From contig NZ_CP025791.1 of the NCBI RefSeq assembly GCF_002886045.1, positions 2,061,001 through 2,125,000 of the forward strand: DNA of 64,000 bases, given 5' to 3'. A program made the translations under genes and the position numbers. The notes beneath the pieces are model-generated. The model was not told where the DNA came from, did not search any database, and saw nothing but the letters and a program-made list of their open reading frames with translations. Each line of letters opens with the position of its first letter. Within the stretch, counting starts at the first letter, position 1. This document shows, piece after piece, positions 3,026 through 57,834 of this stretch. The stretch comes from Flavivirga eckloniae (GTDB lineage Bacteria; Bacteroidota; Bacteroidia; Flavobacteriales; Flavobacteriaceae).

Positions 3026-3499
3026 ATGAAAAACATCTTACTTCTAATCACCCTAGCTTGTCTAAACTTAAATAGTTATAGCCAAGATTATTCAAAACTT
3101 AAGGACTATGAATTTAGTGGCGATAAAATTTTTAAAAAGTCTGAATCACAGGTCCTCGAATGCACCAATTACTTATTAAGCAATCCAACTAATAAAGACG
3201 AATTAAATAGGTTGAATTCTATGCAATTCATTATGAAATGGATGGAGGGTACTCCTGATTACACTTTTAATATAGGTAAAAAAGCAATGGATTTAACAAA
3301 AGGAAATTCAGACCTATTGGGTTTATATTTAGCTGCTATGACTAAAACCGTATTGGATAATACCAACAGCAAATTAAATGATGATGATATTCATGAAAAT
3401 GCTAAAAAACTGCTTGTAGATTATTGCTCAAACCCAAACAACAACATAAAACCTTCAAAGACTATCAAAAAAATATTAAAGAAGAAAAGCAAAACTTAA
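3026..3499 (+). CDS. Small secreted protein of unknown function
   Basis: The frame is open from a GTG at 2993, but the ATG at 3026 begins a clean signal peptide (MKNILLLITLACLNLNSYS, likely cleaved before QD), so I place the start there. The product is 157 residues. The mature part is mostly polar and helical, with no Cys pair or catalytic motif that I recognise, and ends in a very basic tail (KKILKKKSKT). Its stop codon is 3 bp from the inverted repeat of the element at 3502-4005. I cannot assign a family. Confidence 0.7.
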   Translation: MKNILLLITLACLNLNSYSQDYSKLKDYEFSGDKIFKKSESQVLECTNYLLSNPTNKDELNRLNSMQFIMKWMEGTPDYTFNIGKKAMDLTKGNSDLLGLYLAAMTKTVLDNTNSKLNDDDIHENAKKLLVDYCSNPNNNIKPSKTIKKILKKKSKT

Positions 3500-3501
3500 A
3501 A

Positions 3502-4005
3502 TAACCTGAGTTCGACATAAGAACAAGCCTGTTTTAGGTGTGAAAGCCAATAATATAAAGTGTTTGTCTCCTTGAGCATTATCGAAATATAAAATGTATT
3601 TTATATTGAAGATACCTAGCGAAGCTTAACGAAAGGTCATAAAAACCTGAAAGTTTAAATAGGTTTCGACTGTGCTCCTGAGATAAATCATAAATTGTTT
3701 ATTTTCAATAAAATAACATGAATCTTGGATAAGAGAATTTATGTCGGTGTGTGTCCCAGACTTGTTTCAGAACTATTTTTTTACTGTCACAGTGCTCTCC
3801 TCTTTAAATTAAAGCCGAGAAATGAATTTCGATTTTGATAAAAATTGGAAGAAAGAGGAGTTTTATTAAAAATAACAAACATATATAACCCTCCGAATCC
3901 CGATCTCATCGGGATCCACCTCCCTTTTTAATAGGGAGGAACACCTTGAATTCTTAAGCAAGATTAACGTTAAAATACAATCATTTTTATGTCGAACTCA
4001 GGTTA
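3502..4005. mobile_element. 504-bp element with perfect 19-bp terminal inverted repeats
   Basis: The left end TAACCTGAGTTCGACATAA (3502-3520) is repeated exactly in inverted orientation at 3987-4005. The interior has no credible ORF, and a second element (3716-3970) is nested in it. The element fills the gap between two convergent genes almost exactly: the flanking stop codons end at 3499 and 4011. Without the nested insertion the core is about 245 bp, the size of a MITE. No clear target duplication is visible, because both flanks are A-rich. This accounts for the only gene-free stretch in this area. Confidence 0.7.
3716..3970. mobile_element. MITE-like element, copy 1 (about 253 bp), nested in the 504-bp element
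   Basis: Nearly identical to 26074-26323 over its full length; the differences I see are one 2-bp indel (gtgtgtgtccc versus gtgtgtccc), GAG versus GCG, and changes at the ends. The ends are imperfect inverted repeats (CATGAATCTTG and the complement CGTTAATCTTG). A TAAAATA heptamer flanks both sides (3709-3715 and 3971-3977), consistent with a target duplication. Inside are two hairpin-forming segments: ATCCCGAT/ATCGGGAT and CCTCCCT/AGGGAGG. No ORF is present, so it would have to be mobilised in trans. Confidence 0.75.
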
Positions 4006-4010
4006 AAATA

Positions 4011-11316: not shown

Positions 11317-13824
11317 TTATTTCTTTTTAGCTGGTGCTTTCTTTTTCGCTGGTGCTTTTTTCTTAGCCGCTTTTTTCTTTGGTGCGTTAGCTTCTATAAT
11401 TGCCTTAGCCTCATCCAAAGTCATTTCGGAAACGTCAACCGTTTTAGCCAGTTCTACTTTTACCTTTCCTTGTATAACATTATGTCTACCCCAACGTGCT
11501 TTTTCAACACGTACTCCTTCTTCTTCCCAATTATGAACAACCTTATCTATTTCTTTTTGAATTTTTGTTTCAATTAATTCAACAATATCCTCTTCAGATA
11601 AGTTATCCCAATCGTATTTCTTATTTACATTAATAAACATATTGTTCCATTTAATAAATGGCCCAAAACGTCCTTTACCTTTTTGTACTGGTAAATCTTT
11701 ATACACATATATAGGAGCGTCTGCTTTTTGCTTTTCTTTAATTAAAACAATAGCGTCATCAAGTTCGACACTCAAAGGATCTACACCTTTAGGCAACGAA
11801 ACAAATGAGTCTCCAAATTTAACATAAGGTCCAAAACGTCCATTATTTACTACAATGTCTTCTCCTTCGTAAGTTCCTAAACTTTTTGGAAGCTGGAATA
11901 AATCCATAGCTTCCTCGTAAGTAATGGTATTTAATTGTTGGTCTGGACTAAGACTGGCAAACTGTGGTTTTTCTTCATCGTCTACAGTACCAATTTGCAC
12001 CATAGGTCCAAATCGACCTAAACGCACACTTACCTGCTTTCCGGTTTTAGGATCTGTTCCTAAAATACGCTCTCCAGATTCTCTTTCTGCATTTTCTTTT
12101 ACATCTTCTACTTTCGGATGGAAGTTTTTATAAAATGACTTCATCATTATAGTCCAATCCTCATTCCCTTCGGCTATCTCATCGAAGTTCTCCTCAACCT
12201 TAGCTGTAAAATTGTAATCCAAAATGGTTTCAAAATGATTTACCAAAAAGTCGGTTACAATCATACCTATATCTGTTGGCACTAACTTTCCTTTATCTGA
12301 ACCTATTTTTTCGGTTAATCGTTTATCGCTTACCGAACCATTCTGAAGTCGTAGTTGTGTATAGCTTCTTTCTACACCTTCAACTACACCTTTTTCTATA
12401 TAATTTCTATTTTGTATGGTTGAAATTGTTGGCGCGTATGTTGACGGACGTCCAATACCCAACTCTTCTAACTTCTTAACGAGTGAGGCTTCGGTAAATC
12501 TTGCAGGCGGACGTGTATAACGTTCAGTTGCTGAAATATAACTATTAAGAAGTGTCTCGTTAGTTTTCATTGCTGGTAACATACCTTCTTGCTCAACATC
12601 TTCATCATCTGTTCCTTCTAAATATACTTTCAAAAAGCCATCAAAAGTAATGACCTCTCCATTGGCCGAGAAAAGTTCATTATGTGTAGAAGCACTAACT
12701 TTTACATTGGTACGCTCTAATTCTGCCTCGCTCATTTGCGATGCTATAGCTCGTTTCCAAATTAAATCGTATAAACGTGCTTGATCCCTATCGATATTTA
12801 CTGAATGTGTTGCAAAATTTGTAGGTCGTATAGCCTCATGCGCTTCTTGAGCACCTTTTGCTTTACCTTTATAATTTCTCGGTTTACTATACTTTGCCCC
12901 ATAAGCACTTTCAATTTCTGCTTGGGCGCCTTGTCTGGCTTCATCCGATAGGTTTACACTATCTGTTCTCATATAAGTAATTAAACCCGCTTCGTATAGG
13001 CGCTGTGCCATCGTCATGGTTTTACTTACCGAAAAATATAATTTACGTGATGCTTCTTGTTGTAACGTTGATGTGGTAAACGGTGCCGCCGGAGATTTTT
13101 TTGCGGGTTTCTTTTCTAAATCTGAAACTTTAAAACTCGCCGTACTGTTCTTTTCTAAAAACTCTTGCGCTTCTTCTTTAGTTGAAAAATTCTTTGGAAG
13201 TTTTGCTTTAAAGGCTTGTCCGTCTTCGTTAGAAAATTCAGCATCAACCCTATATGAAGCTACTGGTGTAAACCCTTGAATTTCTCTCTCTTTCTCAACA
13301 ATGAGTCTCACCGAAACGGACTGTACTCTACCTGCAGATAATCCTCCTTTTACTTTTCGCCAAAGCACAGGAGATAGTTCATAACCTACTATTCTATCCA
13401 GTACACGACGGGCTTGCTGGGCATCTACCAAATCGTAATCGATACCTCTGGGGTTTTCAATTGCTTTTTGAATAGCTGCCTTTGTGATTTCGTGAAAAAC
13501 AATTCGTTTCGTTTTTTCCTTATCTAATTTTAAAGCTTCAGCCAAGTGCCAAGCAATTGCTTCCCCTTCTCGATCCTCATCACTTGCTAACCAAACCAAA
13601 TCGGCATTTTTAGCTAAGTCCTTTAATTTTTTTACAACTGCCTTTTTATCCTTGGATATCTCATATTTCGGTTTAAAATCACCATCTACATTAACGCCTA
13701 ATTCTTTGGAAGGTAAATCGGATATATGTCCGAAACTTGACTCTACTTTAAAGTCTTTTCCTAGAAATTTTTCAATGGTTTTTGCCTTTGCTGGTGACTC
13801 TACTATCACTAAATTCTTCGCCAT
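11317..13824 (-). CDS. topA: DNA topoisomerase I (type IA)
   Basis: TopA relaxes negative supercoils by cutting one strand through a 5'-phosphotyrosine. The 835-residue protein has an N-terminal Toprim domain (LVIVESPAKAKTIEKFLG; acidic DEDREGEAIAWH) and the active-site segment GLITYMRTDSVNLS near residue 290. The C-terminal region carries repeated RFGPxxxxG units (LGRFGPMVQIG, NNGRFGPYVKFG, GKGRFGPFIKW) without Cys pairs, so it has zinc-free versions of the Topo C-terminal repeats. It ends in a Lys/Ala/Pro-rich tail made of KKAPAK repeats. A TACATTTG -7 box lies 20 bp upstream of the start. Confidence 0.97.
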   Translation of the reverse strand: MAKNLVIVESPAKAKTIEKFLGKDFKVESSFGHISDLPSKELGVNVDGDFKPKYEISKDKKAVVKKLKDLAKNADLVWLASDEDREGEAIAWHLAEALKLDKEKTKRIVFHEITKAAIQKAIENPRGIDYDLVDAQQARRVLDRIVGYELSPVLWRKVKGGLSAGRVQSVSVRLIVEKEREIQGFTPVASYRVDAEFSNEDGQAFKAKLPKNFSTKEEAQEFLEKNSTASFKVSDLEKKPAKKSPAAPFTTSTLQQEASRKLYFSVSKTMTMAQRLYEAGLITYMRTDSVNLSDEARQGAQAEIESAYGAKYSKPRNYKGKAKGAQEAHEAIRPTNFATHSVNIDRDQARLYDLIWKRAIASQMSEAELERTNVKVSASTHNELFSANGEVITFDGFLKVYLEGTDDEDVEQEGMLPAMKTNETLLNSYISATERYTRPPARFTEASLVKKLEELGIGRPSTYAPTISTIQNRNYIEKGVVEGVERSYTQLRLQNGSVSDKRLTEKIGSDKGKLVPTDIGMIVTDFLVNHFETILDYNFTAKVEENFDEIAEGNEDWTIMMKSFYKNFHPKVEDVKENAERESGERILGTDPKTGKQVSVRLGRFGPMVQIGTVDDEEKPQFASLSPDQQLNTITYEEAMDLFQLPKSLGTYEGEDIVVNNGRFGPYVKFGDSFVSLPKGVDPLSVELDDAIVLIKEKQKADAPIYVYKDLPVQKGKGRFGPFIKWNNMFINVNKKYDWDNLSEEDIVELIETKIQKEIDKVVHNWEEEGVRVEKARWGRHNVIQGKVKVELAKTVDVSEMTLDEAKAIIEANAPKKKAAKKKAPAKKKAPAKKK

Positions 13825-25754: not shown

Positions 25755-26488
25755 GAGGGCGTCTAAAAAGTGCCATTCTGAATGGAATGAACCTGCCAAC
25801 CAGCAGCTACGGTGTACCCACATCTTTTTAATCAAGACACGAATTACACAAATAAAACCTCAATATGATGGATAGCTCTCTATACTATTCATAATTACGA
25901 ATCAGACTTTCAGTCTGTTTTTACAATCCAAACCCGATTTAATTCAATTATACCTTTGTACTTTAATTTATCAATAAGTAAACTCAAATTACTTATTTGT
26001 AAATAATTTATATTTAGAACCATTTGTGATAATTCGTGAAATTAGTGTCTATCTTTTTAGAATTATTATTTAACGTAATCTTGGATAAGAGAATTTATGT
26101 CGGTGTGTCCCAGACTTGTTTCAGAACTATTTTTTTACTGTCACAGTGCTCTCCTCTTTAAATTAAAGCCGAGAAATGAATTTCGATTTTGATAAAAATT
26201 GGAAGAAAGAGGCGTTTTATTAAAAATAACAAACATATATAACCCTCCGAATCCCGATCTCATCGGGATCCACCTCCCTTTTTAATAGGGAGGAACACCT
26301 TGAATTCTTAAGCAAGATTCACGTTATTTAAGCAACCATATTTGTGGGTACACCGTAGCAACCAGCAGGGGAATCTTATTAAATTATAACTATTTAATTT
26401 ATAACAAATAAAATTCTTCGCTTGCTTCGACTATGCTCAGCACAAGCCGCTCTGAATGACAAAATAAGTTACTTTTTTAGACACCCTC
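25755..26488. mobile_element. Miniature inverted-repeat element, copy A (interrupted), 734 bp
   Basis: Bounded by GAGGGCGTCTAAAAAGT (25755-25771) and the near-exact inverse ACTTTTTTAGACACCCTC (26471-26488). A second inner inverted pair, GCTACGGTGTACCCAC and GTGGGTACACCGTAGC, lies near 25807 and 26354. The core is the reverse complement of the element at 57357-57834, but is split by a 250-bp insertion. Without it the length is about 476 bp, matching the 478 bp of the other copy. No transposase frame is present. The element accounts for most of the gene-free stretch after groEL; I see nothing else in the remaining flanks. Confidence 0.75.
26074..26323. mobile_element. MITE-like element, copy 2 (250 bp), with 8-bp target duplication
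   Basis: TTATTTAA is present on both sides (26066-26073 and 26324-26331), and the uninterrupted relative at 57357-57834 has this octamer once (complement at 57518-57525). This defines the insertion exactly. Ends are CGTAATCTTG and, inverted, CGTGAATCTTG. The sequence is nearly identical to 3716-3970, in the same orientation. No ORF. Confidence 0.85.
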
Positions 26489-26537
26489 TTTTTTGTTTAT
26501 TTACAAATCACAGTCGAAGTATTACTAGTAACTTAAT

Positions 26538-27101
26538 TTACATAGTCATTTGAAAAACAATATCCTGATAGACTTGAGCATTACCTTTCTTCAAGTATTT
26601 AACTTCCTCGCCTCCACCCATCGCTAAAACTGGTGTAAACGTAAAAATTTCATTTTTGATCAGTACTCCTTGTTCGGTAATAGCCTGATTAAACAAATCT
26701 TCTCTTAACCACTCTTTTCTATCCTCTTCATTCGTTAGAAAATCTTCAAAAAATGATTCTAGGCCCCATACAATGGTCTCTATTTTTCGGTATTGAATAT
26801 CTATCATACAAACATCCTCATCTGTTTCTGTAAGCTTCCGATAGTAAAACAGCTCTCCAAAACCGCTAATTGCAAAAGGGACGTAATTTTCTACTTCCCG
26901 TCCTAACCAAGTCCATAACGACGGTTCAAAATCCTTTGGATTAATTAATTCTATTACCCCATTATTATATTTGGCATGACCGTTAGATCTCCATAAGTCA
27001 ATTAACAATTGAGGTACTTTTTCCTTATATTCTTCTATAATGTCTTCAGAAACTGGAGATACGTTTTGTTGTGGTTTAAATAGGTTTGTGAATTTTTTCA
27101 T
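26538..27101 (-). CDS. GAD-like/DUF1851 (Tdi1 immunity-like) protein
   Basis: The 187-residue soluble protein reads like the GAD-like plus DUF1851 arrangement: IIEEYKEKVPQLLIDLWRSNG and the loop INPKDFEPSLWTWLG near 50-70, then YVPFAISGFGELFYYRK and a C-terminal FTPVLAMGGGEEVKYLKKGNAQV. This architecture is shared with Tdi1, the immunity protein of a type VI effector, but it also occurs without effectors. No toxin gene is seen beside it. Two uncharacterised exported proteins follow upstream on the same strand. The call is from remembered family pattern. Confidence 0.7.
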   Translation of the reverse strand: MKKFTNLFKPQQNVSPVSEDIIEEYKEKVPQLLIDLWRSNGHAKYNNGVIELINPKDFEPSLWTWLGREVENYVPFAISGFGELFYYRKLTETDEDVCMIDIQYRKIETIVWGLESFFEDFLTNEEDRKEWLREDLFNQAITEQGVLIKNEIFTFTPVLAMGGGEEVKYLKKGNAQVYQDIVFQMTM

Positions 27102-57356: not shown

Positions 57357-57834
57357 AGGGTATCTAAAAAGTTCTCGAATTGTCACCTTGAGTACTTCGG
57401 CTATGCCCAGCATAAACTAAAGTCGAAAAATCTCAACACTTAAATAAACAAATCTTTAATTTTATGAGGTTCCCTACCTGCCGGCAGCTACGGTGTACCC
57501 ACAAATATGGCTGCATATTAAATAATAGTTTTATAAAGATAGACACTAATTTCACGAATTATCACAAATGGTTCTAAACATAAATTGTTTACAAATAAGT
57601 AATCAATGTTTACTTATTAATAAATTAAAATACAGAAATATAATAGAAATAAATCGGGTTTGGATTGTAAAAACAGACTGAAAGTCTGATTCGTGATTAT
57701 GAATAGCATCGAGAGCTATTCATTATATTGAGGTTTTATTCGTGTAAATTCGTGTAATTCGTGTCTTGATTAAAAAGATATGAGTACACCGTAGCTGCCG
57801 GCGGGTGTTCTGAATGACACTTTTTAGACAGGCT
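57357..57834. mobile_element. Miniature inverted-repeat element, copy B (uninterrupted), 478 bp
   Basis: Bounded by AGGGTATCTAAAAAGT (57357-57372) and ACTTTTTAGACAGGCT (57819-57834), with inner inverted arms GCAGCTACGGTGTACCC (57485-57500) and GTACACCGTAGCTGC (57785-57799). It is the reverse complement of 25755-26488 across its core; TTAAATAA (57518-57525) is the single, empty version of the site where the 250-bp MITE entered copy A. No ORF. The remaining gap up to 58070 shows nothing notable. Confidence 0.75.

Follow-up and report, generated by a model that had tools for sequence, protein, structure and literature searches.

MITEs derived from IS982 are already known, an example being MITECca01 of Cardinium cOegib, which is about 240 bp long (PMC9769881). 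The 252-bp element described here, from the single-contig 5.67-Mb genome of Flavivirga eckloniae, is a further and ordinary element of this kind and is well supported as such. The two are alike in being gene-less, in carrying IS982-like ends, in lying mostly between genes and inside other mobile elements, and in occurring in one lineage (PMC9769881). They differ in that MITECca01 shares its genome with its intact parent, ISCca4, whereas the search for IS982-type transposase domains in F. eckloniae gave none; in copy number, with 169 copies of MITECca01 against 22 full-length 252-bp elements; and in that the core of the 252-bp element, unlike that of MITECca01, appears to come from another repeat family (PMC9769881).

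For the IS982 family as a whole, the consulted sections of PMC7335449 give ends beginning with AC in 57 of 69 elements, conserved end positions AC(N)6T(N)5TT and listed target duplications of 2–10 bp. IS1187 of Bacteroides fragilis, a member of this family, resembles the MITE in its AC ends and in a duplication of variable length, which is 7 bp in IS1187 (PMC7335449). The MITE is unlike IS1187 and the rest of the family in having no transposase gene, in deviating at the positions after AC and in showing, at one locus, a 12-bp duplication (PMC7335449).

The window analysed is a stretch of 64,000 nucleotides, bases 2061001–2125000 of the genome, and contains two copies of the element, whose boundaries were set by an alignment of 22 copies and a table of end-anchored loci. 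Copy 1 (locus L001; window positions 26073–26324, plus strand) is 252 bp long and has the ends ACGT-AATCTTGG and AGATTCACGT; its terminal inverted repeats are ACGT(G)AATCTTGGATAAGA at 26073–26090 on the plus strand, where the left end is short by one base relative to the family, and ACGTGAATCTTGCTTAAGA at 26306–26324 on the minus strand. Copy 2 (L002; 3716–3970, plus strand) is 255 bp long. The sequence-only reading of the window had estimated 97% identity between the two; they are somewhat closer, with 3 substitutions per 252 aligned bases plus 3 gap columns. A search of the own genome with the element gave 49 matches, 22 of them alignable end to end, and these copies lie 0.8–3.7% off their consensus, so that the recent movement proposed in that reading holds in a relative sense only. 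The element ends read ACGTGAATCTTGGATAAGA on one side and ACGTGAATCTTGCTTAAGA from the other, and the family consensus is ACGTGAATCTTG.

At 252–255 bp the element is without coding capacity, and no ORF of at least 100 aa overlaps 26073–26324. Twenty-nine of the 31 family loci in the own genome lie outside ORFs of at least 100 aa, and the remaining two ORFs may be chance. The features of a MITE are present: the element is short and gene-less, and has terminal inverted repeats, target duplications, empty sites and dispersed copies. Rfam, searched at gathering thresholds, gave 0 matches in the window. The 252-bp unit folds better than shuffled sequences on both strands (z = −4.19 and −3.89), which is expected from its palindromes and is hence not taken as a sign of RNA function. 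The gene adjoining the insertion (26538–27101, minus strand) encodes an immunity-type protein with GAD-like and T6SS_Tdi1_C domains.

To define the target duplications, 51 loci with both ends were anchored at ACGTG...CACGT, 31 in the own genome and 20 in relatives; where an end had indels or several changes, its anchor was set manually. The count covers fetched loci, and further listed end matches fall outside it. Left out were L008 and L020, which belong to the same nest as L002; L009, at the same host site as L001; the truncated loci L022 and L024–L028; the core-only loci L029 and L030; loci with one end recognised (L083, L084, L087, L090–L092, L098, L099, L101, where the end pair is merely 58 bp apart, L103, L106, L109, L113, L116, L119 and L178); and repeat fetches of one site (L105, L114, L118, L170, L171, L173, L175 and L177). 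At 39 of the 51 loci (27/31 in the own genome) an exact duplication of 5 bp or more adjoins the ends without a gap; its length is 5 bp (n = 2), 6 bp (n = 14), 7 bp (n = 20), 8 bp (n = 2) or 12 bp (n = 1). Random re-pairing of the same flanks (2000 draws) gave a mean of 3.5 such loci and a maximum of 12, so the target duplications are far above chance. TA stands at both the start and the end of 34 of the 39 duplications, against a background TA frequency of 0.126 per dinucleotide. The 12 loci without an exact duplication comprise four of the 31 in the own genome (L015, L017, L082 and L086) and eight of the 20 in relatives (L096, L100, L108, L110, L111, L117, L176 and L181); at L015, L017 and L096 it is missed by one base. 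The sequence-only reading would have been refuted by copies at other sites in related genomes that lack target duplications or have variable boundaries; set against this, the family has boundaries that can be aligned, a duplication that varies in length, and these 12 loci with no exact one.

Thirty-eight of the 39 duplications, at 5–8 bp, lie within the 2–10 bp listed for IS982, and the 12-bp one lies outside it (PMC7335449). The latter, TAGATTACTCTA, flanks a related 188-bp element (L075; genome 4408766–4408953) and is far longer than the others. No TA rule for IS982 targets was seen in the sections of PMC7335449 consulted, and the many insertions assembled here supply a testable one: two TA steps, mostly 6–8 bp apart, with a duplication of variable length.

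In the window, copy 1 is flanked by TATTTA at 26067–26072 and 26325–26330, and copy 2 by TAAAATA at 3709–3715 and 3971–3977, as the sequence-only reading had it for copy 2. That reading had given copy 1 an 8-bp duplication, the octamer TTATTTAA. Its letters are indeed present at 26066–26073 and 26324–26331, and once, as the complement, at 57518–57525, but the duplication anchored on the family ends is the 6-bp TATTTA; the octamer is repeated because the target had T before and A after this hexamer. As a family rule, an 8-bp duplication with CG...CG ends holds at 4 of the 51 loci and was rejected.

Copy 1 lies within a host miniature repeat of a 310-bp class (25807–26358, minus strand; ends CTACGGTGTACCCACA), which has its own 10-bp target duplication, CAACCAGCAG, at 25797–25806 and 26359–26368. 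A repeat of this class without the element occupies 57488–57794 (plus strand), narrower than the 57357–57834 first proposed for it, and carries the empty target site TAAATA, the complement of TATTTA, at 57519–57524. The host repeat has 50 matches in the own genome. Among 30 host loci fetched (L120–L149), 24 are uninterrupted at this site (L135, at the contig start, being one of them), two contain the element, namely the window copy and L009, while four do not cover the site. The preserved empty site noticed earlier is therefore there, and the copy alignment, the 51-locus table and these host paralogues bear out the earlier interpretation of a MITE inserted exactly, the host being in place before the element. 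Copy 2 lies, as had also been noticed, in a different host, a third kind of miniature element with the IS982-like ends ACCTGAGTTCGACATAA, of the type seen on the IS982 elements examined (3504–4003, plus strand), itself flanked by TAAAATA at 3497–3503 and 4004–4010.

Two host subfamilies differ beside the copy 1 site, reading GGTTGC---TTAAATA and GGCTGCATATTAAATA, and the two occupied hosts belong to different ones; the 3-bp difference (TAT) is not an insertion mark, since it also separates unoccupied hosts of the two subfamilies. At L024 and L026 a 310-bp-class host sits inside the terminal hairpin of the element's core, so the host also inserts into the element and the two families nest in both orders. 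Read by eye, copies of the 310-bp class have duplications of 9–10 bp, often starting with CT and many within a palindrome like CTGCCGGCAG. Four host copies are broken near host position 131–160 by about 185–206 bp of other DNA (L034; genome 2155402–2155927, 2691424–2691916 and 5447432–5447917); in two of the four, this DNA matches a repeat flanking L012. The position is perhaps a second insertion hot spot. The hosts at window 25760–26490 and about 57357–57834 apparently lie within a larger repeat with ends like GTCTAAAAAGTG...CACTTTTTAGAC, and copy 1 may be nested three deep.

IS982 elements in Flavobacteriaceae have the ends ACGTGAGTTCGA-N2-TAAGAA or close to it. Ends were examined at 23 IS982 loci, which for the genus took in a part of its IS982 loci; no IS982-type end pair was recognised at 9 of the 23. 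Ten loci have ends in ACGTGA, some of them with broken or partial transposase genes, and seven of these ten carry exact duplications, all of the form TA...TA and 6–8 bp long (TAATCTA, TAAATA three times, TAGATTTA, and TAATTA twice). L153 and L193 have no duplication, and the flanks of L190 are one base apart (TAAATCA and TAAATTA). The TAATCTA duplication belongs to L151, which has a 303-codon open frame scoring 248 bits against NF033520 (cut-off 130) and the ends ACGTGAGTTCGACGTAAGAA. At loci with ends in ACCTGA, 5-bp duplications of the form T-N3-A were seen in 9 of 10 (L183, L188, L192, L207, L208 and L211–L214), five of them being copies in one genome; at L183 and L207 moving the end inwards by one base gives a fit at 7 bp as well.

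The closest match to the MITE among the IS982 loci examined is L190, from another genome of the same family (G067). This element is about 1010 bp long and encodes a 303-aa transposase scoring 254 bits against NF033520 (cut-off 130). Its ends, ACGTGAATAATGTTTAAG and ACGTGAATAATGGATAA, follow the form ACGTGAATAATG(TT/GA)TAA and show the same left/right difference as those of the MITE, and its flanks nearly form a TA...TA duplication. It differs from the MITE in its length and gene, and in two bases over the first 12 of the end (ACGTGAATAATG versus ACGTGAATCTTG), with AA in L190 for CT in the MITE. The MITE begins with AC, in line with the IS982 rule, and within the conserved pattern AC(N)6T(N)5TT it agrees at this AC only, having C at position 9 and TA at positions 15–16 (PMC7335449). 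These positions, as given in the consulted sections, are not decisive, because L190, whose transposase passes NF033520, also lacks T at position 9.

The sequence-only reading had proposed a search for a transposase gene with matching terminal repeats; L190 gives a near match, and no transposase gene with exact ACGTGAATCTTG ends was found among the loci examined in the own genome, the genus and 397 family genomes. PF13612 had 0 matches in the own genome and is present in 7 of 12 genus genomes. Near-match single ends occur at L152, L154 and L199, the first two near incomplete IS982 genes in two genus genomes. Well-paired ends in the fetched end-pattern loci are 146–525 bp apart; the sole kilobase-sized pair, at L099 (1107 bp), is poor on its left side, and L039 and L040, each with a short match to one end, showed no transposase-like ORF by eye. 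IS982-type matches occurred in 217 plasmid records, none of them reaching 60% identity.

The cores of the 51 elements were compared after trimming 32 bp from each end. The largest class holds 28 elements, from the own genome and relatives; the 252-bp class holds 19, all in the own genome; a further class has 2, and 2 elements stand singly. The 252-bp-class core has no detectable sequence in common with the others. The ends stay constant: in the 32 elements outside the 252-bp class, compared with a member, a median of 28 of 30 left-end and 24.5 of 30 right-end bases are identical. One pair of ends is thus found with two unrelated cores, so that cores have been exchanged between constant ends, in a family whose ends and duplications match the IS982 pattern.

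The end pattern (at most one mismatch) occurs in 10 of 12 genus genomes, the own included, and in its exact form in 4 of 397 family genomes; a longer exact pattern gave 6 loci in the named genome collection, only in Flavivirga amylovorans, Flavivirga aquimarina and Snuella sedimenti. The 252-bp form, with its 22 full-length copies, was found in the own genome only, other Flavivirga having the same ends with an unrelated core; among the matches listed for the 11 other genus genomes, none exceeds 151 of 250 query bases, and ends or core alone are matched. It is therefore the ends that have the wider distribution, and the 252-bp form appears to have arisen locally.

We consider the 252-bp unit to be most probably a non-autonomous IS982-type MITE, moved in trans by an IS982-family transposase, and put the probability of this reading at about 0.83. 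The assignment to IS982 is based on the near-identical ends and the same TA...TA duplications on IS982 elements. An IS982-family DDE transposase supplied in trans would recognise only the outer ~30 bp of each end, excise or copy the element, and join both ends to the target at two TA dinucleotides, the joints usually being 6–8 bp apart; gap repair would then duplicate the stretch between the joints, mostly TA-N(2–4)-TA. The core would play no part in movement, and the transposase would since have been lost from the genome or never have been resident there. Counting against this reading are the lack, among the loci examined, of a transposase with the exact ends, the 0 PF13612 matches in the own genome, the 12 anchored loci at which no exact duplication was seen, the single 12-bp duplication and the agreement with the published end positions at AC only. 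The IS982 loci themselves also speak against it in part: the flanks of L190 differ by one base, L153 and L193 are without a duplication, end pairs went unrecognised at 9 of 23 loci, and loci with ACCTGA ends have 5-bp duplications.

The ends might instead belong to another family of DDE transposases, one making 8-bp target duplications. The octamer repeated around copy 1 would fit this, as would the deviation of the end positions beyond AC from the IS982 consensus (PMC7335449, as far as consulted), and the transposase search of the own genome covered IS982-type domains only. Nevertheless, a duplication of 8 bp fits so few of the anchored loci, and ends and duplications so close to those of the MITE occur on IS982 elements, that we regard this alternative as improbable. 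Still more improbable is a spread driven by the core, in which the repeat associated with DUF559 genes and the DUF559 nuclease would do the moving and the ends would be passengers. The core does match repeat arrays, one of which holds a DUF559 gene, and most stand-alone DUF559 genes lie between direct repeats (see below), but 28 elements combine these ends with an unrelated core and mostly show the same kind of duplication, and in all 19 anchored 252-bp-class elements the core lies between the ends.

That some copies reached their place through gene conversion between repeats, or were carried there inside a host, is less likely than not, though more probable than either of these alternatives. 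The nested pair of copy 2 and its host occurs at three places (L002, L008, where the right host end is missing, and L020); the host flank differs at 8–11 of 211–212 positions and the element at 11–15 of 254–255, and since the two have diverged alike the nested pair moved as one. L001 and L009 sit at one host site and have a common one-base loss at one end, which speaks against separate insertions, as does, weakly, one host column common to both occupied copies and found in 2 of 27 others. Their hosts, however, come from different subfamilies and show 33 differences over 319 bases, and the elements themselves differ at 8 of 244 compared bases, against 2 of 244 between L001 and L002; it is simpler to assume that the same TAAATA was hit twice, independently. 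The flanks, moreover, are different at all 51 anchored loci, which also tells against this alternative.

The core of copy 1 (26147–26297, plus strand) gives matches of about 150 bp to a two-hairpin repeat. Element positions 74–224 match repeats at 4.711, 4.737, 4.743 and 4.765 Mb with 72–80% identity, where the spaces between ORFs hold alternating copies of two hairpin blocks, A (AACCCTCC...GGGAGG) and B (GCTCTCCTC...GAGGAGTTTT). Such arrays were located at L031:9046–10460 (genome 4.711 Mb), L032:6916–7016 and 13179–13589, and L033:7189–7823; the unit in L031 is about 218 bp, and one gap in these arrays contains a DUF559 nuclease gene. A lone B–A junction without MITE ends lies at 788 kb (L029). 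Integron attC arrays, another candidate for these tandem repeats, were set aside provisionally, the units alternating as two hairpin blocks between ORFs. DUF559 matches occur in 41 of 99 genomes, the own included, and exceed in number the 33 loci fetched, 32 of which were used (L074, a partial match, was set aside) to align the 450 bp upstream with the 450 bp downstream of the gene, against 30 shuffles. Stand-alone DUF559 genes lie between direct repeats scoring better than all 30 shuffles at 17 of 20 loci (L071, L215, L216, L218–L220, L223, L226, L227, L231, L232, L234, L236, L237, L239, L242 and L243, with L229, L235 and L240 failing), several of which may be orthologous and so not independent; where DUF559 lies inside an open frame of at least 346 codons, flanking direct repeats were found in 0 of 12. 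In ten DUF559 loci that were inspected, the letters of the repeat vary between genomes and the layout is similar in most.

The 252-bp core probably derives, to judge by these matches, from the two-hairpin repeat found at DUF559 genes. REP sequences and RAYT transposases are a known case of hairpin repeats accompanying a small gene whose enzyme acts on DNA, a likeness that concerns the MITE core only. DUF559, which is not known to be a Y1 transposase, differs from RAYT in this respect. The link between stand-alone DUF559 genes and flanking repeats is an association, not proof of movement. A tentative idea, in which we believe rather less than we doubt it, is that the stand-alone DUF559 genes of Flavobacteriaceae and the two-hairpin direct repeats around them form an undescribed repeat-propagating or mobile module, whose gene-less junction was captured by IS982-type ends in this Flavivirga and spread to about 22 places, the end pair exchanging its cargo. 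No account of a DUF559-flanking repeat was found among the open-access papers listed, judged by title and start of abstract, and it may be in print elsewhere. The repeats surrounding DUF559 nuclease genes, to which the core draws attention, are a lead that deserves its own study.

For nine insertions, the two flanks were joined and used as queries against the 12 genus genomes. Six gave no clear match across the join among the matches listed, and for L006 three relatives align too poorly at the join to judge. The site of L019, a 250-class copy, is uninterrupted in four relatives, less exactly alignable at the join. For L077, a 189-bp member of the family, an exact empty site with a single TAATTA is present in one relative (G005).
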